A stretch of 64,000 bases of DNA from an uncultured Pseudokineococcus sp. (GTDB taxonomy: Bacteria > Actinomycetota > Actinomycetes > Actinomycetales > Quadrisphaeraceae): assembly GCF_947495735.1 (NCBI RefSeq), contig NZ_CANMAA010000012.1:1-64000 (forward strand). The letters are read 5' to 3'. Every line of letters starts with the position of its first letter. The stretch's first letter is position 1. The notes beneath the pieces were generated by a model that saw only the letters and a list, made by a program, of their open reading frames with translations, was not told the origin of the DNA and searched no databases. Below, piece after piece: positions 22,178 through 30,282 of this stretch. The position numbers were made by a program, and so were the translations under genes.

Positions 22178-25100
22178 GTGCCCGAGCCGACCCGTGCCTC
22201 CCGGTCCCCGCGGCACCGCTCCCGCCTGGGCGCGCTGCTGCGGCGCGAGCCCGCGCCGGACGCCGGCGCCCCCGCGGTGGAGGTCCCGCCGGCGCCCCCC
22301 GCGGACGAGCAGCCCGCTGCGCCGCCGCCGGAGGAGCCCGCCCTCCCGCCGGTCCCGCGCACCCCGCTCGCCGACGTGCTGCGCGGCTGGGGCGAGGAGC
22401 TCGCGCGCGCGGGCGGGCGCGGGGTGCTCGTCGACGACCGGACGGCGTCGAGCGAGCTCGTGCCGCCGCTCGACGTGGGGGGCGCGCACCCCTCCGGGCT
22501 CGCCGCCTTCTGGGCCGGTCGGCCCACCCGCCTGTCCAGCCTCTTCCGCGAGCGGGGGGCGCACGAGGTCGCGCGCGAGCGGGTCCGCCTGCTGCGCACG
22601 GCGTCGACCGAGGTCACCGCCCAGCACGGCACCCCCACCTGCGCGCTCGCCGTCGGCCTGGTGCGCTGGAGCGGGCCGGCCGTCGAGGGCCCGCCCGGGA
22701 GCGACCCGGTCGCCGACGGCCCGGTCGAGGTCCACGCGCCCGCCCTGCTCCAGCGCCTCGACCTGCGCCCGCGGGGAGCCGGCGCCCTCGACGAGGAGCT
22801 GGACCTGCGCCCCGAGGTGCGGGTGAACCCCGCGCTCGTGCACCTGCTCGCCCGGCGCGGCCACGAGGTCGACGTCGCCGAGGTCCTGGCGCCCTTCGCC
22901 GACGGGCACGGCGACGCCCACCGGCGGGCGCTGCGCGAGCTGGCGGCCCAGCTGGCCGGCGTGCCCGGCCTCCAGCTGGGGGAGCGGACGCTCGTCGGCG
23001 TCTACCCCGAGCTGGCCGGCCCGCTCACCGCCGACGTCGAGGCCCTGCTCGCGGCCGCGGCCGCGCCGTCGGGCTCCGGGGCCGAGGAGAGCCTCGGCGG
23101 GCTCGTGAGCGGGCTGGCCGAGGTCGCCGCCGGCGGCCCGGTCGAGCCCTCCGTCGCCGAGGGCCCCGGCAGCCCCGAGCCGGGGTGGGGCGACGTGGCG
23201 ACCTGGCGCGTGCTCGACCTGGACGAGGACCAGCGCGCCGTGCACGACGCGGTGGCGAGCGGGCGCTCCCTGCGCGTCCTCGCCGAGCCGGGCACCGGTG
23301 CGACGCAGCTGGTCGCCCAGGTCGTCGCCTCCGCCGCGGGCGCCGGACGCCGCTGCCTCGTGCTCGCCCCCTCCCTCGGGGAGGCCGCCGACGTCACCGC
23401 CCGCCTGCACGAGGCGGGCCTCGGCGCACTCGTCGACCCCGCCGACCGCTCGGCGCCGCGCGCGACGGGAGCCGACCCGGCTGCGGCGGCTCCCGACGAG
23501 GCCGCCTCGCCCGCCGACGGACCCGAGGAGGCGGTGGCCCGCCTGCGCGCGGGCGCCCGCGCCCTCGACGTGCCGGCCGGCGAGGGGCTGGACACGGGCG
23601 TCCTGGCCACGACCCAGGCCCTGGTGCGGCTGGCCCGCCTGCCCCACCCGCCGCGCAGCCCCGTCCGGCTGGACGCCGCCGCCGTGTCCGCCGCGTCGGC
23701 CGAGGGCCTGCCCCGCGTGGTCGCCGGGGTCCGCCGGGCGGCCCGCCTCGGCGCGTTCCGGCCCGAGCTCGCGGCGAGCCCCTGGCAGGGGGCGGCGCTC
23801 GGCTCCGCCGACGAGGCGCACGTGGCCCGCCGGCGCGCCGAGGAGCTGGCCGAGGTCCGCCTCCCGCGCCTGGCCGACCACCTGGCCGCGCTCGGGGAGC
23901 GCACGGGCCTGCGCCCGCCGCGGACCGTGGACGAGGTCGGCCGCCGGCTCGGCCTGCTGGTCGACGTCCGCGGGACGCTCGAGGAGTTCACGCCCGGCGT
24001 CTACGAGCGGCCGCTGGGCGAGCTGGTGCGGGCCCTCGGCCAGGACGCCTCCTGGCGCACGCGGCGGACGGCGCAGAAGGTCGTCGCCGAGGTCGTGCGC
24101 CCCGGGGCGCGCCCGGGCGACCTCCGGACCTCGCTGCGCCGGGCCGACGCCGAGCGGCGCGCCTGGTCGGCGGCCGCGCTCGACGGCGGGCGACCGCGCG
24201 TCCCCTCCGGCATCGCGGAGGTCCAGCGCGCGCTCGCGGACGTGGTCGCGGAGCTGGACCGCCTCGAGCCCGTGCTGCGCGGCACCCGCGCCGGCGCCGG
24301 GCTGCGGGGCGCCGACCTGGCGGCGCTCGAGGTCCGGCTGCGCGACCTCGCCGAGGACCCGGACGCGCGCGGCGACCTCCCGCGGCGCGTCGACGTCCTC
24401 GTGCACCTGGCCTCGCTGGGCCTCGGCGAGCTCGTGGCCGACCTGAGGGAGCGAGGGCTGGCGGGGGCGCCCGTCGACGAGGAGGGCGCCGGTCGCGAGG
24501 CGGAGCTCGTCGTGCGCGCGTCCGCCCTGGCCGAGGCGCGCCGCCGCGGCGTCCTCGACGACCTGCTGCCCGGCCGCGCCGCCGCCGCGCGGGCCCAGCT
24601 CGTCGCCGGCGTGGCCGCGCAGCGGCGCAGGGCGGCCGCGGACCTCGTGGCCGCGCAGCCGGAGCCGCTGGTCCGGTGCGCGAGCCTGCTCGCGCTGCCC
24701 TCCCGCCTCGGGGCCCTGGGCGAGGGCGCTCGCGCGGACCTCGTCGTCGTCCTCGACGCCTCCGCGGCGGGAGTGCCGGAGGCCGCCCTGGCCCTCGCCC
24801 GCGGGGCGCAGGTCCTGGTGCTCGGCGACCCGGCCGGCCCTCCGCCGTCCTCCGCCGTGGTGGGCGCGCCGGCGCCCGAGCACCCGGGGACGGCGGCGCC
24901 CGCGAGCCTGTGGGCCTCCACCGCCGGCCTGCTCGACGAGCGCGCCCTGCGGGGCCTGCACCGGCTGCCGCGACAGCTCGTGCCCGTGCTCGCCGCCGCG
25001 CGGGCGGAGGCGCTCGACCCCTCGGACGGGTCGGGCCAGCCGGCGTCCCCCACGGCTCCCGAGGGCTCGACCGACCCCGCGGGCGGCTCCCTGCGGGCCG

Positions 25101-26266
25101 TCCCGGCACCCCCCGGCTCGTGGCCGGTGGTCCTGCGCCGCTCCGGCGGTCGCGGCCGGGCGTCCGAGGACGGCGTCGTCCACTCCCTCGACGTCGAGGT
25201 CGAGGCCGTCGTCGAGACCGCACTGGGGCACCTGCGGGAGGACCCGCAGCGGTCGCTGGCCGTCGTCGCGGTGACGCGCGGGCACGCGCGACGCGTCGCG
25301 GACGCGCTGCGGGCCGCCGTCGCCGCCGACCCCGAGCTCGCCGCCGTGCTCGCCCGGACCCCGCGCGCGGGCGAGCCGCTGGTCGTCACCGACGTCGGTC
25401 GCGCGCAGGGCGTCGTGCGCGACGTCGTCGTGCTGGCCACCGCCTTCGCGCCCACCGAGCGCGGCCGCGTCCCGAGCTCCTTCGGCCCCCTGGACGCCGC
25501 CGGGGGTGCGGCGGCTCTGGCGGACGCCGCGGCCGGCGCCCGTCGCCGCCTCGTCGTCGTGACGTCCCTGGAGGCCGAGGGGCTCGACCCCGACCGCCTG
25601 CGCACCCCCGGGGCCCGCGCCCTGCGCAGCCTGCTGGTCGCCGCCGAGGCCGCGGACGCGCGCGGCCCCTCCGAGGGCGGGCCGGTGACCGGTGACGTCG
25701 ACGCGTCCCCGCCCGACGTCGCGCCGGAGGACCTGCTGCCGCCGGGCGACGACGCGGCCCGCGCGCTGGGCGCCCACGCGCTGGCGTCCGCGCTGGTCGC
25801 CCAGCCCCCGGCCGAGGCCGCGGAGGACGGGGCCAGCGGGGACGGGGCCAGCGGGGACGGGGCCACCCGGGACGAGGTCGTCGAGGACGGGGTCGTCGAG
25901 CCGGCCGACGACGACCCGCTCGTCGACGCCCTGGTGCAGCGGCTGCGCGCGGCAGGGGCGCAGGTGCGGCGTGGCAGCGAGCCGGGCGACCCCGACCTGT
26001 CCGTGCGCCTCGCGGACGGCCGCTCCGTGGCCGTGCTGCCCGACGTCCGCCCGCCGGGGCCGGAGGTCGGCACCTCGGCCGCGGACCCCGTCCTGCGCGC
26101 GCAGGAGGCGGCGGCCCTGCGCCGCCAGGGCTGGGCGGTGGCCCACGTGCCGTCCCTCGGCCTGCTCGTCGACCCGGCCGGGGAGGCGGCGCGCGTGATC
26201 GCCGCGGCGCGCAGGCCCTGGAGCCCCGTCGAGCAGCCCGCGCCGACGACGGAGGACGGGGCGTGA
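22178..26266 (+). CDS. helicase-nuclease-like protein with eroded catalytic motifs (DUF4011-type)
   Basis: The 1362 residues align by eye with the DUF4011/SF1 helicase/endonuclease-like family, but every catalytic motif is changed. Walker A reads AEPGTGATQ (369-377), with Ala where the lysine should be. Motif II reads VVVLDAS (856-862) instead of VDEAS. Motif III is GDPAGPPP without Gln. Motif V is QGVVRD (1077-1082) instead of QGDERD. Motif VI is AAAGARRR (1117-1124) instead of TRAR. The C-terminal nuclease-like part has LPD where an active Glu/Asp pair is expected. The frame is open and long, so the protein is probably kept as a non-enzymatic scaffold. GTG 22178 lies 6 nt after TAGCGT. It is coupled to the next gene by GTGA. 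Confidence 0.7.
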   Translation: MPEPTRASRSPRHRSRLGALLRREPAPDAGAPAVEVPPAPPADEQPAAPPPEEPALPPVPRTPLADVLRGWGEELARAGGRGVLVDDRTASSELVPPLDVGGAHPSGLAAFWAGRPTRLSSLFRERGAHEVARERVRLLRTASTEVTAQHGTPTCALAVGLVRWSGPAVEGPPGSDPVADGPVEVHAPALLQRLDLRPRGAGALDEELDLRPEVRVNPALVHLLARRGHEVDVAEVLAPFADGHGDAHRRALRELAAQLAGVPGLQLGERTLVGVYPELAGPLTADVEALLAAAAAPSGSGAEESLGGLVSGLAEVAAGGPVEPSVAEGPGSPEPGWGDVATWRVLDLDEDQRAVHDAVASGRSLRVLAEPGTGATQLVAQVVASAAGAGRRCLVLAPSLGEAADVTARLHEAGLGALVDPADRSAPRATGADPAAAAPDEAASPADGPEEAVARLRAGARALDVPAGEGLDTGVLATTQALVRLARLPHPPRSPVRLDAAAVSAASAEGLPRVVAGVRRAARLGAFRPELAASPWQGAALGSADEAHVARRRAEELAEVRLPRLADHLAALGERTGLRPPRTVDEVGRRLGLLVDVRGTLEEFTPGVYERPLGELVRALGQDASWRTRRTAQKVVAEVVRPGARPGDLRTSLRRADAERRAWSAAALDGGRPRVPSGIAEVQRALADVVAELDRLEPVLRGTRAGAGLRGADLAALEVRLRDLAEDPDARGDLPRRVDVLVHLASLGLGELVADLRERGLAGAPVDEEGAGREAELVVRASALAEARRRGVLDDLLPGRAAAARAQLVAGVAAQRRRAAADLVAAQPEPLVRCASLLALPSRLGALGEGARADLVVVLDASAAGVPEAALALARGAQVLVLGDPAGPPPSSAVVGAPAPEHPGTAAPASLWASTAGLLDERALRGLHRLPRQLVPVLAAARAEALDPSDGSGQPASPTAPEGSTDPAGGSLRAVPAPPGSWPVVLRRSGGRGRASEDGVVHSLDVEVEAVVETALGHLREDPQRSLAVVAVTRGHARRVADALRAAVAADPELAAVLARTPRAGEPLVVTDVGRAQGVVRDVVVLATAFAPTERGRVPSSFGPLDAAGGAAALADAAAGARRRLVVVTSLEAEGLDPDRLRTPGARALRSLLVAAEAADARGPSEGGPVTGDVDASPPDVAPEDLLPPGDDAARALGAHALASALVAQPPAEAAEDGASGDGASGDGATRDEVVEDGVVEPADDDPLVDALVQRLRAAGAQVRRGSEPGDPDLSVRLADGRSVAVLPDVRPPGPEVGTSAADPVLRAQEAAALRRQGWAVAHVPSLGLLVDPAGEAARVIAAARRPWSPVEQPAPTTEDGA

Positions 26267-26481
26267 GCGGGCAGCCGCCGCCCCCGCCGTCCGGGGCGAG
26301 CCCCGGCGACGAGGGTCCCGAGGCGGCAGCGGCCCCGGCGGGGACCGCCCGGCGGCGCCCGCAGCGCGACGACCCCGTGCTGCCCGACCGCGCCGCCGAG
26401 GACCGCCCCGAGGCCTGGGGCGAGCGCGCGGACGAGGACGACGACGAGCGCTACCTCCGGGACCGCCCCCCGCACTGGTGA
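26263..26481 (+). CDS. small acidic protein ending in RPPHW
   Basis: The 72 residues are proline-rich and disordered at the start. They then carry a conserved-looking end: LPDRAAEDRPEAWGERADEDDDERYLRDRPPHW. GTG 26263 overlaps the stop of the pseudo-helicase gene by 4 nt, so both are made together, and a physical partnership is plausible. I know similar short actinobacterial proteins ending in PPHW but no function. Confidence 0.7.
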   Translation: MSGQPPPPPSGASPGDEGPEAAAAPAGTARRRPQRDDPVLPDRAAEDRPEAWGERADEDDDERYLRDRPPHW

Positions 26482-26529
26482 CCCGTGCGGGGACGCCTGG
26501 GGCGAGGCGCCCGGCGCGATGATGCCGAG

Positions 26530-26904
26530 GTGACCGCCTCCTTCGGTGCCGTCGTCCTGAGCACACCGGACCCGCGAGAGCTCGCCGCCTTCTACGGCGA
26601 GCTGCTCGGCTGGACCACCGTCAGCTCCGAGCCGGACTGGGTCCGGCTGCGCGACCCCGAGCGGGAGCGACCCGGCCTGAGCTTCCAGCGCGAGCCCGGG
26701 GACGCGCCTCCCACCTGGCCCGCCCGCCAGGGCGGGGTGGCGATGCAGGCCCACCTCGACGTCCTCGTGGACGACCTGGACGCCGAGGCGGAGCGAGCCG
26801 TCGCCCTGGGGGCGAGCGTCGAGGAGCACCAGCCGGCCCCGGGCGTGCGGGTCCTGAGGGACCCGCACGGCCACGTCTTCTGCCTCTTCCTGCCCGGCTC
26901 GTGA
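26530..26904 (+). CDS. VOC-superfamily (glyoxalase-like) protein
   Basis: Two beta-alpha-beta-beta-beta halves: VVLSTPDPRELAAFYGELLGW and later AHLDVLVDDLDAEAERAVALGA...VRVLRDPHGHVFCLF. Residues equivalent to metal ligands are only partly present, as in the Glyoxalase_6 group. At 124 residues it is a single-copy VOC module. GTG 26530 is preferred because the residues before it are off-pattern and GATGAT lies 6 nt upstream. Substrate unknown. Confidence 0.78.
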   Translation: MTASFGAVVLSTPDPRELAAFYGELLGWTTVSSEPDWVRLRDPERERPGLSFQREPGDAPPTWPARQGGVAMQAHLDVLVDDLDAEAERAVALGASVEEHQPAPGVRVLRDPHGHVFCLFLPGS

Positions 26905-26953
26905 CGGCGGGCGGCGCCGCCGCGCCGACCGGAGCGCCGCCGCCTCAGCCCCT

Positions 26954-26991
26954 AGCAAGTACTTGCCCGGCGGGCAAGTACTTGCTCTACT
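26954..26991 (+). promoter_or_regulatory. promoter inside a twin palindromic operator
   Basis: Two identical 12-bp palindromes GCAAGTACTTGC lie at 26955-26966 and 26974-26985, 19 bp apart centre to centre. Together they form one near-perfect larger dyad (26954-26986). TTGCCC (26963) and TCTACT (26986-26991) with a 17-bp spacer fit a sigma-A promoter lying within the boxes. The spacing of nearly two helix turns suits two regulator dimers side by side. Confidence 0.75.
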
Positions 26992-27018
26992 GGTGCCTCC
27001 GCTCGACGAGGAGGACCC

Positions 27019-27468
27019 GTGGACACCGACCATCCCCCGATCACCGCGCAGCAGGCGCGCGACCAGCTCGACTCCACTCGGACCCGGTCGCTGGGCGCGC
27101 CCGGTGACCGCAGGGCCCACGCGATCGGTGCGGCGGCCGTCGGGCTCACGACGGGCCTGCACATGGCGACCAGGAACCTGGTCGGCGAGAGCCTCTACGC
27201 GGTCCTGTCGGCGGTCAGCATCGGCGTGGTCATCGCCGTGGTCCTCCGGGTCGAGAGGGTCTCGCGCACGGTGCCGCGCGGGGCTCGCCGGTGGTTCTGG
27301 ACCGGGCTGGCGACCTCCTTCGCGGTGGCCCTGGGCTTCGTGACGCCCTGGCTCAACCTCCAGGCCCAGGACGGGCCGAGCACCTGGCCGACGGTGGTCT
27401 CGGGCGCCGTCGTGGTCGCCGTGCCGAGCCTGCTCGCGGCCGCCGCGATCGCCCGCTCGCGACCGTGA
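27019..27468 (+). CDS. membrane protein controlled by the downstream regulator
   Basis: The 149 residues have an amphipathic N-terminal part (ITAQQARDQLDSTRTRSLG) followed by four hydrophobic segments (about 34-52, 57-75, 91-107 and 122-144). GTG 27019 has GGAGGA 5 nt upstream. It overlaps the winged-helix regulator by 4 nt. Membrane protein plus small winged-helix regulator is a frequent actinobacterial pair; the function of the membrane protein is not known. Confidence 0.75.
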   Translation: MDTDHPPITAQQARDQLDSTRTRSLGAPGDRRAHAIGAAAVGLTTGLHMATRNLVGESLYAVLSAVSIGVVIAVVLRVERVSRTVPRGARRWFWTGLATSFAVALGFVTPWLNLQAQDGPSTWPTVVSGAVVVAVPSLLAAAAIARSRP

Positions 27469-27782
27469 GCACCACCCAGGGCCACCACGCCCGCCACCGC
27501 CTCGACGAGGCCATCCACGCCCCGGTGCGCCTGAGCCTGGTCGCCGCGCTGGCTCAGGTGGACGAGGCCGAGTTCGCCCACGTGCGCGACACCATCGAGG
27601 TCACCGACTCGACGCTGTCCAAGCAGGCGGCGCAGCTGGAGGTCGTCGGGTACGTGAGGATCCGCAAGGGGCACGTCGGCAAGCGACCGCGGACCTGGCT
27701 GTCCCTGACGCCCACCGGGCGGGAGGCCCTCGCCCGCCACCTCGACGCCCTGCGCCTCATCGCCGAGGGCCCGTCGTCCTGA
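27465..27782 (+). CDS. winged-helix transcriptional regulator (HTH_34-like)
   Basis: The 105 residues form one winged helix: HRLDEAIHAPVRLSLVAALAQ, recognition helix TDSTLSKQAAQLEVVGYV and wing VRIRKGHVGKRPRTWLSLTPTGREAL. There is no extra sensor domain, so it may sense its ligand through a small pocket, or act with the membrane protein. It likely binds the twin GCAAGTACTTGC boxes upstream and controls its own operon (inference from context). GTG 27465 overlaps the upstream stop. Confidence 0.85.
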   Translation: MSTTQGHHARHRLDEAIHAPVRLSLVAALAQVDEAEFAHVRDTIEVTDSTLSKQAAQLEVVGYVRIRKGHVGKRPRTWLSLTPTGREALARHLDALRLIAEGPSS

Positions 27783-27895
27783 GGGGAGCGGCTCCTGGCG
27801 CAGCGGGGCCGGCCGGCGCGACCGGCGTGGTGCTGCCGTGGGCCCCGTTCGACGTCCCGGTGCGGTGCCCTGCGTCGGTGCGCATCGCCGAGGTC

Positions 27896-28268
27896 GTGAC
27901 GGCGCGACGCGCCGCTGCCGCGGCGGTCGTCGCGCTGGGCGCTGCGGTGGCCACCGGCTGCGGCGGGGGCGTGGAGGAGGGCGCCAGCACCGGCGGGCCG
28001 TGGATGACGATGAGCGTCGCGGTCTGCGTCGCCGAGGACGCCGACGTGCCCCGGTCGGCGGCCGTCGAGGTGCGGCAGGACGGCGACGTCGTGGGGGCCG
28101 CCGGCGACTCGGCCGGCCGTCCGACGTGGTTCGAGGTCTCGACGAGGAGCGGCGTCGTCCAGGTCGTCGCCGACGGGGAGGTGCTCGAGGAGCGGACGGG
28201 GCGAGCCCGGGGACCGGCTCGTGATCGCCCTCGGCGACTGCACCCCGCCGCCGCCTGAGTCTGCCTGA
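27896..28268 (+). pseudogene. putative lipoprotein with a one-base frameshift near the end
   Basis: GTG 27896 begins TARRAAAAAVVALGAAVATGCGGG, a lipoprotein signal with the lipid-bearing Cys at about residue 21. A short extracellular domain with VAVCVAED and VRQDGDVVGAAGDSAGRPTWFEV follows. At the GGGG run at 28198-28201 the natural frame is lost. If one G is removed the protein continues TGEPGDRLVIALGDCTPPPPESA to the stop at 28266, and its Cys could pair with the one in VCVAED. As sequenced the frame instead ends at 28258 with an arginine-rich tail. Real mutation or sequencing error cannot be told apart. Confidence 0.6.
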
Positions 28269-28362
28269 CGAGGCCCTGGCACGGCGCCCCGTCGGCGGGC
28301 GACGCTCTCCGTCGGTCGTCCCCGTCCGGTCGTCGACGTCGTGCGCCTGCCATCCTCCGGTG

Positions 28363-28893
28363 GTGGTCACACCCGCGACACCCCTCCCCGAGGACGTCGT
28401 CGGCGAGCCGCTCAGGGCCCAGCTCGAGGCCTTCGTGGACCAGCACCGGATGGTGCTCACCTCGTGCCTCCACGGGCTGGACGAGGAGCAGGCGCGTCGG
28501 CGGCTGGTGCCGTCGGCGACCACCCTGCTCGGGCTCGTCAAGCACGCCACCTTCGTGGAGCGGGTGTGGTTCGACGAGGCCGTCACGTGCCGCTCGCGCG
28601 AGGAGATCGGCCTCGAGGCGGGACCGGAGGAGTCGTTCGTCCTGCACCCGGGGGACACCGTCGCGAGCGTCCAGGAGGCCCACCTGCTGGCGTGCGCGGC
28701 GTCGCGGCGCGCCACGGCGTCCCTGGACCTGGACGACCTGGTGCACGGCAACCGCCGCGGTCCGCTGCCGCTGCGCTGGGTCTACCTCCACGTCCTGCGG
28801 GAGCTGGCGCAGCACTGCGGGCACGCCGACGTCCTGCGCGAGCAGCTGCTCGCCACCTCGAGCACCACCGCACCACCCGTCGAGGACAGGTAG
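28363..28893 (+). CDS. DinB/DUF664-family protein
   Basis: A four-helix bundle of the DinB type: PLRAQLEAFVDQHRMVLTSCLHGLDEEQARRRLVPSATTLLGLVKHATFVERVWF, and near the end RWVYLHVLRELAQHCGHADVLREQL. Histidines in VKHATF and HCGHAD can form the metal site. Many relatives are mycothiol-dependent transferases. GTG 28363 is preferred over 28360 because CATCCT lies 6 nt before it. Confidence 0.8.
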   Translation: MVTPATPLPEDVVGEPLRAQLEAFVDQHRMVLTSCLHGLDEEQARRRLVPSATTLLGLVKHATFVERVWFDEAVTCRSREEIGLEAGPEESFVLHPGDTVASVQEAHLLACAASRRATASLDLDDLVHGNRRGPLPLRWVYLHVLRELAQHCGHADVLREQLLATSSTTAPPVEDR

Positions 28894-28899
28894 GCAGAC

Positions 28900-29820
28900 G
28901 TGCCCTCGGTCGAGCGGCCCCCACCACCCCCGCTGGCGTGCGGCAGGCGGCACTCCCTCGGGGTGCTCGCCGACGGGACGGTGGCCGCGGCGGGGGACGA
29001 CGGCGCCGGTGAGTGCGCCGTCCAGGGCTGGCGCGACGTCGAAGCCGTGGCGGCTGGGACCGTGCACGCGGCGCGGAACACGGGCAGGTCGCACTCGTTG
29101 GGCCTGCGCTCGGACGGGACGGTGCTGGCGACCGGGTGGGACGCCGACGGGCAGTGCCGGGTGGAGCGGTGGCGCGACGTCGTGGCCGTGGCCGCGGGGT
29201 GGCGCCGCTCGCTCGGCCTGCTCGCCGACGGGCGGGTCCTGGCCGCCGGTCGGACGGCGGAGTCCGCGGGCGACGTCGCGTCGTGGCGGGAGGTCGTCGC
29301 GGTCTCCGCCGGCGACTGGCACACCGTCGGCGTCCGCGCGGACGGGACGGCGGTCGCCACCGGCGTCGACCGCTTCGGCCAGTGCGCCGTGCGGGACTGG
29401 CGCGGTCTGGTCGACGTCGCGGCCGGGTACCTGCACACCGTCGGCCTGCGCGGTGACGGGACGGTCGTCTCGACCGGTCGCGGCGACGTCGGCGCCTGCG
29501 ACGTGAGCGGCTGGGAGGACGTCGTCGCGGTCGCGGCGGGCAGCCACCACACCGTCGCGCTGACCGCCGGGGGCGGCGTGCGAGCGACGGGCGCCGACGG
29601 CCACGGCCAGTGCGACGTCGACGGCTGGCGGGACGTCGTGCACGTCGCGGCCGGTGCCCTGCACACGCTCGGGCTGCGCGCCGACGGCACGGTCCTCGCG
29701 GCTGGTGACGGCTCCGACGGCCAGCGCGCCGTCGACGGGTGGCGCTGCCGGCGTCGACGACCGCGGAGCGGCGGGCCTGCGCCACCAGGTGCCGGCGGCC
29801 CGGCTCCCGCCCGCTGCTGA
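28900..29820 (+). CDS. RCC1-like repeat protein
   Basis: Six to seven repeats of about 40 residues with the shape GWRDVVAVAAGxxHTxGLRADGTVLATGxDxxGQC. This is the RCC1/BNR-type beta-propeller pattern, and it begins near residue 14. No signal peptide or catalytic domain is visible, so it is a cytosolic binding propeller. In the last repeat the sequence changes abruptly to arginine- and proline-rich residues (after GWRC, residue 283), perhaps a frameshift or a worn end. It lies 7 nt after the DinB stop. Partner unknown. Confidence 0.8.
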   Translation: MPSVERPPPPPLACGRRHSLGVLADGTVAAAGDDGAGECAVQGWRDVEAVAAGTVHAARNTGRSHSLGLRSDGTVLATGWDADGQCRVERWRDVVAVAAGWRRSLGLLADGRVLAAGRTAESAGDVASWREVVAVSAGDWHTVGVRADGTAVATGVDRFGQCAVRDWRGLVDVAAGYLHTVGLRGDGTVVSTGRGDVGACDVSGWEDVVAVAAGSHHTVALTAGGGVRATGADGHGQCDVDGWRDVVHVAAGALHTLGLRADGTVLAAGDGSDGQRAVDGWRCRRRRPRSGGPAPPGAGGPAPARC

Positions 29821-29838
29821 GGCCCCGGCCGGGCCTCA
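29818..29838. terminator. hairpin that contains both convergent stop codons
   Basis: TGAGGCCC-CGGCC-GGGCCTCA is an 8-bp perfect stem. Its first three bases are the stop of the RCC1-like gene and its last three are the complement of the mscL stop (TGA on the minus strand). It can act as a terminator in both directions. Confidence 0.65.
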
Positions 29839-30282
29839 GGCGCGGTCGGCCGGGTCCGCCCCGTCGCCGGTCTGCTGCGCGGCCCGCTGCTCGCGGAGGA
29901 GGTCGCGGATCTCCTGCAGCAGCAGCACGTCCTCGCTCGGCGACGCGACGTCGGCCTCCTGGCCCTCCTTGCGCAGCGCGAGGAGCCGGTTCATCGGCAG
30001 GACGACCAGGAAGTACAGGACCGCCGAGACGATGAGGAAGTTGAGGACGGCGGCGACCGTGGTGCCGAAGACGACGGTCGTGGTGCCGCTGTCCGTGGCG
30101 GTGGGGATGTCCACGCCGAGGGTGCCCACCTCCTCCGCGTCGAACAGCGCGGCGAGGAGGTTGCCGAAGACGTCGGTGCTGAGGGCGCTGACGATGGCGG
30201 TGAACGCCGACCCGATGACCACCGCGATGGCCAGGTCGATGACGTTGCCGCGCAGGATGAAGTCCTTGAAGCCGCTCAGCAC
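29836..30282 (-). CDS. mscL: large-conductance mechanosensitive channel
   Basis: Releases solutes on osmotic downshock. The N-terminus FKDFILRGNVIDLAIAVVIGSAFTAIVSAL is the MscL signature and first membrane helix (about 5-37). A periplasmic loop of about 35 residues and a second helix (AAVLNFLIVSAVLYFLVVLPMN, 77-98) follow, then a charged C-terminal bundle with EDVLLLQEIRDLLREQ. At 148 residues it is normal. GTG 30282 follows GAGGAG. Confidence 0.96.
   Translation of the reverse strand: MLSGFKDFILRGNVIDLAIAVVIGSAFTAIVSALSTDVFGNLLAALFDAEEVGTLGVDIPTATDSGTTTVVFGTTVAAVLNFLIVSAVLYFLVVLPMNRLLALRKEGQEADVASPSEDVLLLQEIRDLLREQRAAQQTGDGADPADRA

Follow-up and report, generated by a model that had tools for sequence, protein, structure and literature searches.

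A conserved actinobacterial protein with degenerate superfamily 1 helicase and nuclease motifs, and its small PPHW neighbour, as a candidate pseudohelicase scaffold

The window analysed here, a stretch of 64,000 nucleotides from an uncultured Pseudokineococcus sp. (positions 1 to 64,000 of contig NZ_CANMAA010000012.1, assembly GCF_947495735.1), carries a gene of 1362 codons that is coupled to a small gene whose product ends in RPPHW. Judged from its sequence and by analogy with AddB and RecC, the large protein is probably a pseudohelicase and pseudonuclease that acts as a scaffold together with its small partner. The features that mark a pseudohelicase, namely a predicted helicase fold, the loss of catalytic residues and maintenance by selection, are combined in this protein and its actinobacterial relatives. 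Below, we lay out the evidence for this assignment, weigh other explanations and compare the family with systems already described.

The G+C content of the gene region is about 82%, and other frames of the same region also hold long open reading frames (ORFs), so that the length of the frame proves nothing in itself. The coding frame is nonetheless real, because relatives from 80 loci align to it, and because the ratio of nonsynonymous to synonymous substitution rates (dN/dS, by the Nei-Gojobori method) is 0.32 against the nearest relative, which also comes from an uncultured Pseudokineococcus (L002; 75% identity across the core). Judged by L002, the window is probably of kineosporiacean (Kineosporiaceae) origin. 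A spurious ORF of high-G+C DNA is ruled out by conservation across the 80 loci, 78 of which have no frame change over the available sequence (that of L004 ends at the contig end). The intact frame and the coupled small acidic protein described in the first-pass annotation of this DNA are thus both present, with overlapping ends. Each of the two other loci (L035 and L069) has a frame change inside the gene, which could be a sequencing error or real. Among the relatives, the annotation was consulted for the copy from Actinomyces oris (L001), where the product is called simply 'DNA helicase', a label that is misleading.

Relatives were searched with a two-sequence alignment of the window and A. 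oris proteins; 107 were confirmed and the best 80 kept. The window protein alone, as query against genome contigs, gave 591 pattern matches and no relative. Because the search patterns, taken from residues 99-116, lie away from the catalytic motifs, the sample was not selected for dead motifs. All kept relatives belong to the Actinomycetota: 40 Micrococcales, 29 Actinomycetales, 9 Allobogoriellales, 1 Kineosporiales and 1 labelled Streptosporangiales. That last entry (L015, from a record titled Sphaerisporangium cinnabarinum ATCC 31213) is nearly identical to the Cellulosimicrobium funkei copy L018 (dN 0.011, dS 0.11) and so should not count as a further order; such near identity makes mislabelling or contamination of the record probable. 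With it, the best 80 of the 107 span about 18 genera. The alignment holds 81 proteins (the window, A. oris and 79 loci, with the split L069 left out). Motif counts below refer to 80 rows, L035 having been dropped for its frame change within the gene, and the nuclease was scored in 79, since the contig of L004 ends inside the gene. For comparison we used five distant proteins from plasmid records (Thioclava, Acinetobacter, Halalkalicoccus, Salinibacter and Hymenobacter), all with GPPGTGKS, FDEASQ, GDxKQ(L/M)PP and TRA(R/K), and four of them with the nuclease motif ECDG.

The Walker A lysine, kept in all five comparators, is kept in none of the 80 family rows. Its position is taken by Val (49 rows), Ala (15), Asp (5), Thr (4), Ser (3), Gln (2), Ile (1) or Glu (1), and neither Lys nor Arg occurs there (0/80). 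The family profile independently aligns this motif to UPF1, placing the P-loop lysine of UPF1 against a consensus position that is not a lysine. In motif II, which aligns in register, the FDEAS of the comparators becomes VLDAS in the window, with Asp changed to Leu and Glu to Asp. The Walker B Glu is lost in every row. The residues at the two acidic positions are D-A in 47 rows, D-G in 13, A-D in 8, L-D in 4, D-S in 3, D-D in 2 and L-A, D-R and H-G in one each; D-E occurs in none (0/80). Branches differ in this lesion: 66 rows keep the Asp and have Ala, Gly, Ser, Asp or Arg in place of Glu, while the Asp is lost in 14, the window included. In 12 of the latter (the window, L002, eight Brevibacterium and two Arthrobacter) the Glu has also become Asp, and in two both residues are lost.

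The remaining motifs are a mixture of lost and retained residues. In motif III, where GDxKQLPP has become GDPAGPPP in the window, the Gln is lost and GD retained; across the family the Asp is present in 80/80 rows, and the Gln stands at its canonical place in 4/80 (ADLAQ) and is lost in 76/80. The motif V Arg is universal (R-D in 73 rows, R-E in 7), as is the last Arg of motif VI, with the full TRAR present in 11/80. The first P-loop glycine is retained in 78/80, and G-T-G or G-S-G precedes the lost Lys in the displayed window, Brevibacterium and Arthrobacter rows. The five comparators share 138 invariant columns in the core, of which 21 family members keep 41% on average; K375, E860 and Q887 are among those kept in at most 10%, and G372, G883, D884, R1081 and D1082 among those kept in at least 80%. 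Three requirements of an active superfamily 1 (SF1) helicase, the Walker A Lys, the Walker B Asp-Glu and the motif III Gln, are thus lacking in the window protein. The first-pass annotation had read Ala for Lys in Walker A (GTGATQ) and changes in motifs III (GDPAGPPP), V (QGVVRD) and VI (AGARRR for TRAR), all of which hold up against the comparators (the Ala is Ala375), and its 'VLDAS for VDEAS' was right in substance. Its wider statement that all catalytic motifs are lost goes slightly too far: it is correct for the Lys and the Walker B Glu, each gone in 80/80 rows, but not for the motif III Asp and the motif V and VI Arg residues, which 80/80 keep.

What kind of protein carries these motifs? 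The window protein itself gives sub-threshold Pfam matches to AAA_30 (expectation value, E, 0.007) and AAA_19. It matches the NCBIfam profiles ProA (NF058533; E 8.7e-33, 112.9 bits against a curated cut-off of 1500) and Hhe (NF042953; E 1.4e-21, 75.8 bits against a curated cut-off of 2000), and in PADLOC the profiles PDC-S37 (4.5e-32) and Hhe (2.1e-16). The ProA and Hhe profiles match all 28 aligned family members scanned, with E down to 1.7e-111, and two of the five comparators were scanned and exceed the ProA cut-off (L082 with 2079.5 bits and L083 with 1782.5). An ordinary anti-phage ProA was rejected as an identity for the window protein, for which both score and motifs fail. The DUF4011 domain (PF13195) is matched by 12/28 family members at E 0.1; among relatives scanned singly, L003 (36.8 bits) and L050 (28.8 bits) pass its gathering score of 22.2, L005 and L022 are unmatched, and L003 also passes that of AAA_12. 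The window protein does not match DUF4011 in Pfam. The signature AHPSGLA..AGRPT, within the DUF4011-like region, is nearly invariant in the family.

Structure comparison points in the same direction. A profile of the 28 members finds UPF1 in the PDB (E 1.2e-5), as well as SMUBP-2 and Nam7; the window protein alone has no match there. An AlphaFold model of residues 62-1168, built from 35 input sequences, has a mean predicted local distance difference test score (pLDDT) of 83 and a predicted template modelling score (pTM) of 0.64. Aligned with VIA-align, it resembles Dna2 (Z 21.7 over 502 residues, root-mean-square deviation 4.8), Upf1 (Z 20.9) and IGHMBP2 (Z 20.6), and Foldseek returns Senataxin, entries containing Aquarius, and Upf1, with E down to 8.9e-10. 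Whole-model TM-scores in Foldseek are low (query-based values, TMq, of 0.16-0.33 in the 50 rows shown), with the core alone being shared. The predicted fold is that of a tandem-RecA SF1 helicase of the Upf1/Dna2 type, and the window protein is a distant relative of the proteins that join DUF4011, an SF1 helicase and an MTES_1575 nuclease, such as ProA and Hhe. The earlier proposal, a helicase of the DUF4011 type that ends in a nuclease-like part, is supported by the ProA/Hhe matches in 28/28 members, the UPF1 profile match and the Dna2/Upf1 fold, with the DUF4011 and nuclease assignments of the window protein made by way of its relatives rather than from that protein alone.

At the nuclease-like end, the motif IECDG of the comparators reads VLPDV in the window, where the Glu is lost. 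MTES_1575 (PF18741) is matched by 25/28 family members at E 0.1, the window protein being unmatched, and its gathering score is passed by three of four relatives scanned singly (L003, L005 and L022). The model of the C-terminal part has a pLDDT of 76, and its best Foldseek matches, VRR_NUC (E 7.3e-3) followed by Hjc, are weak, with nothing at E <= 0.001. The nuclease Glu is kept in 5/79 rows, all from Brevibacterium, and an Asp stands there in 2/79. The loss of the acidic pair noted in the first-pass annotation is thus real for the Glu of the window, while the five Brevibacterium rows keep that residue. The YH that follows IExDG in the comparators reads YA in Brevibacterium L003 and L014.

Purifying selection maintains the sequence of the family. 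We computed dN/dS for 30 pairs selected as close relatives, of which 29 had dS below 1. The whole-gene value never exceeds 0.32, that of the window and L002, and its median over 29 pairs is 0.17. The helicase core alone has a median of 0.11 and a maximum of 0.29 (29 pairs), and the nuclease part gives 0-0.29 in the 29 pairs for which it could be computed. These values are not those of neutral decay. Two findings would have spoken against a maintained pseudohelicase, namely relatives that have intact motifs beside a copy evolving neutrally, or the absence of any helicase profile match, and neither was encountered.

The small gene is the second constant element. A downstream ORF on the same strand with PPH(W/Y/S/A) near its end is present in 67/80 loci, plus L069, and five Brevibacterium loci (L003, L014, L038, L044 and L049) also have a PPH gene, with a longer tail; two of these five read PPHH. 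Seven loci (L004, L005, L007, L021, L047, L050 and L070), with less than 400 bases of contig left, could not be scored, so that all 73 loci with sufficient sequence beyond the large gene carry the small one, as do the window and A. oris. The small neighbour first noticed in the window is therefore constant in the loci that could be scored. The encoded proteins are 67-196 amino acids long by the longest reading (60 copies), and their starts lie at -1, -4 or -8 relative to the end of the upstream stop codon in 28/60 copies; other starts are mostly 3 to about 100 bases past the stop, with two at 434 and 636. The N-terminal parts differ between families, and the common part is the C-terminal peptide, of the type (N/D)D.RL.RD.PPHW and placed at or near the C-terminus, which would be typical of a short docking motif. 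No other occurrence of the pattern turned up in the 1.54 Mb that the loci and the window make up together. Pfam had no match for the window copy of the small protein or for seven of eight relatives (the eighth gave one sub-threshold match), and a tblastn search of plasmids with one relative found none.

Both genes occupy a fixed place in the genome. Of the 70 loci for which 5 kb or more of downstream DNA is available, 64 have mscL on that side of the pair, at a median distance of about 0.46 kb; further neighbours are 5-FCL (57 loci), Glp (37), GNAT (34) and SAF (32). Homologues of mscL, 5-FCL, Glp and GNAT are also found in the window; queries with the SAF and VOC proteins of the window matched no locus, and a further query, baeRF_20600, lies in a wrong frame and is given no weight. 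The gene tree (54 rows; from a quick search, its branches being long and flagged for long-branch effects) broadly groups the copies by organism family, and was used only for this broad agreement with taxonomy. A search of viral contigs with the family signature gave 49 pattern matches, none encoding a relative. The synteny with mscL and a tree that broadly follows organism families indicate an old, vertically inherited chromosomal unit. In the window, about 3.3 kb of ORFs (26485-29820; VOC-like, hypothetical and RCC1-repeat-like by eye) separate the pair from mscL, unlike in L002, where mscL follows directly. The A. oris copy lies on a 415 kb 'plasmid' (NZ_CP116225.1) that carries the pseudohelicase gene, mscL, 5-FCL and glp, a neighbourhood that is chromosomal elsewhere; this 'plasmid' may be a piece of chromosome or a chromid. 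The features of the window are collected in Table 1.

Table 1. Positions of the candidate pseudohelicase gene, its small neighbour and associated features in the window
Feature	Position	Strand	Remarks
Putative pseudohelicase/pseudonuclease gene	22178..26266	+	1362 amino acids, GTG start; 80 related loci, dN/dS, ProA/Hhe profile matches
N-terminal DUF4011-like region	22361..23017	+	residues about 62-280, boundary approximate; family signature AHPSGLA..AGRPT
Degenerate Walker A	23285..23305	+	residues 370-376, EPGTGAT; Lys position is Ala375; comparators PPGTGKS
Degenerate motif II (Walker B)	24752..24763	+	residues 859-862, LDAS instead of DEAS
Degenerate motif III	24824..24847	+	residues 883-890, GDPAGPPP
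Motif V remnant	25406..25423	+	residues 1077-1082, QGVVRD; comparators QGDERD
Motif VI remnant	25532..25543	+	residues 1119-1122, AGAR; comparators TRAR or TRAK
MTES_1575-like C-terminal region	25901..26212	+	Glu of IExDG replaced by Leu1287
Small acidic partner gene	26263..26481	+	72 amino acids; start overlaps stop of pseudohelicase gene (GTGA)
Conserved C-terminal peptide of partner, DDERYLRDRPPHW	26440..26478	+	window copy ends RPPHW
mscL	29836..30282	-	usual downstream neighbour of the pair elsewhere; here about 3.4 kb away

How else might such a protein be explained? If the gene were a pseudogene, the decaying remnant of a helicase-nuclease that is confined to this genome, degenerate motifs would be expected, the pair of window and L002 does have the highest dN/dS of the 30, and two of 80 loci have a frame change. 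However, 78 loci do not, the same losses are fixed in all 80 scored rows, and the constraint extends to the nuclease part. The pseudogene reading is refuted by purifying selection throughout the family, and we regard it as extremely improbable. A different proposal is that the protein is an unconventional nucleoside triphosphatase (NTPase) or helicase whose activity does not depend on the usual lysine and glutamate. This would account for the P-loop glycine retained in nearly all rows, for the G-T-G or G-S-G before the missing Lys, and for the conserved motif III Asp and motif V and VI Arg residues; D-D even occurs at Walker B in two rows, and the motif III Gln survives in four. Considering that Lys and Walker B Glu are replaced without exception, that the motif III Gln is gone in 76/80, and that the lesions are specific to branches, a lost catalytic constraint fits better than a shared new chemistry, and this alternative seems quite unlikely.

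Two further alternatives concern the function of the pair rather than its chemistry. Because ProA, Hhe and PDC-S37 are the best profile matches, the large protein could be an inactive relative of these anti-phage proteins that senses phage factors or serves as their decoy. The scores lie far below the family cut-offs, however (112.9 versus 1500 for ProA), the site near mscL is fixed and chromosomal, the tree broadly tracks taxonomy, and the annotation read for A. oris lists no defence gene, a check that covered this locus alone. A role in defence is accordingly unlikely. A DUF4011 gene can belong to the core genome and border a defence hotspot, as in Pseudomonas aeruginosa (PMC10250203). Perhaps the small gene is an unrelated passenger and not a partner at all: its N-terminal part is variable, at least 25/60 copies start between 3 and more than 600 bases past the stop, and the partnership of the two proteins is deduced from gene order. 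Against this stand the same peptide in every testable locus, the start at -1, -4 or -8 in nearly half of the copies, and a peptide pattern found nowhere else in the loci and window, so that we consider a passenger improbable.

Some observations nevertheless weigh against a dead scaffold with a bound partner. Unusual P-loop NTPases exist, and catalytic status was judged here from the sequence. We infer the physical interaction of the two proteins from gene order only. Five Brevibacterium copies (L003, L006, L014, L039 and L049) lack the P-loop Lys and keep the nuclease Glu (VESDG or VETDG), and Brevibacterium rows also retain the motif VI TRAR; in these five a working nuclease may still sit beside a dead helicase. 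The dN/dS of 0.32 between window and L002 is above that of five neighbouring genes (0.13-0.28) and below that of a sixth (0.42); a seventh neighbouring ORF gives 2.5, in a frame that is probably wrong, and carries no weight. Because motif IV has changed from QQ to HA and the GDE of motif V is lost, binding of nucleic acid in the old groove is not assured. Finally, the sample consists of the best 80 of 107 relatives that carry one N-terminal signature.

With these points in mind, what might a pseudohelicase scaffold do? It would not translocate. Its old helicase groove and nuclease pocket would instead hold nucleic acid, proteins or both, making it a stable platform comparable to AddB and RecC or to the PriA of Deinococcus. 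The small and probably disordered partner would dock by its PPHW end, and so would close the empty pocket or else tether a third factor. Such a pair would serve in housekeeping, for the maintenance of genome or RNA, and would not be a mobile defence system. The ATPase residues would have disappeared either ahead of the divergence of the sampled family or repeatedly, and the nuclease residues later, as proposed because five Brevibacterium rows keep the Glu. The fuller form of this model comprises a housekeeping pair in several actinobacterial orders, with a doubly dead Upf1/Dna2-type scaffold that reads nucleic acid and arose independently of AddB and RecC, and a small disordered protein that controls or tethers it through a C-terminal PPHW docking peptide; we give it about an even chance of being right.

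Several known systems resemble parts of this picture. The family shares with ProA and Hhe the domain order seen in the comparator L082, but it has neither the P-loop Lys nor the DE box, has mostly lost the nuclease Glu, scores (in the window) far below the curated cut-offs, and is fixed near mscL with the small PPHW gene attached. Upf1, Dna2, IGHMBP2 and Senataxin, to which the core of the predicted fold is similar (Z 17-22), are active ATPases. RecC has a dead nuclease-like domain. The inactivated SF1 domains of AddB and RecC lack the motifs and read DNA where the old single-stranded DNA track was, so that an SF1 fold without motifs serves as a nucleic-acid reader (PMC4824097). Those domains, however, resemble UvrD-type helicases and form a complex with an active helicase, whereas the present family is predicted to be closest to Upf1/Dna2 and has as its fixed neighbour a protein of about 65-200 amino acids; the annotation read for A. 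oris shows no second helicase. The PriA of Deinococcus radiodurans is likewise a helicase of bacteria whose motifs have degenerated within one lineage while the protein has stayed conserved, and it is reported to lack ATPase and unwinding activity, yet to bind DNA and DnaB (PMC4504706); it differs in being a replication-restart protein from another helicase family. Yeast Utp25 also has a helicase fold with vestigial motifs and is proposed to be a cofactor or scaffold, although it is of the DEAD-box type and acts in eukaryotic ribosome assembly. The article on it calls it only the second proposed pseudohelicase, after Deinococcus PriA (PMC9539457).

Because pseudohelicases and inactivated helicase subunits are thus already known (PMC4504706, PMC9539457, PMC4824097), the suggestion in the first-pass annotation of a 'new kind' of two-protein system was too strong. 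A description of this family was not found in the open PMC literature, though a preprint or subscription paper could exist, and none of the open PMC papers on DUF4011 concerns the family, judged by title and the start of the abstract. With few pseudohelicases on record, the proposed reading, if true, would add a family of about 18 genera in which two enzymatic activities have decayed stepwise, with the steps still legible in the sequences, beside a small neighbour that has remained constant. The pair would then provide a testable system for how a motor turns into a scaffold.

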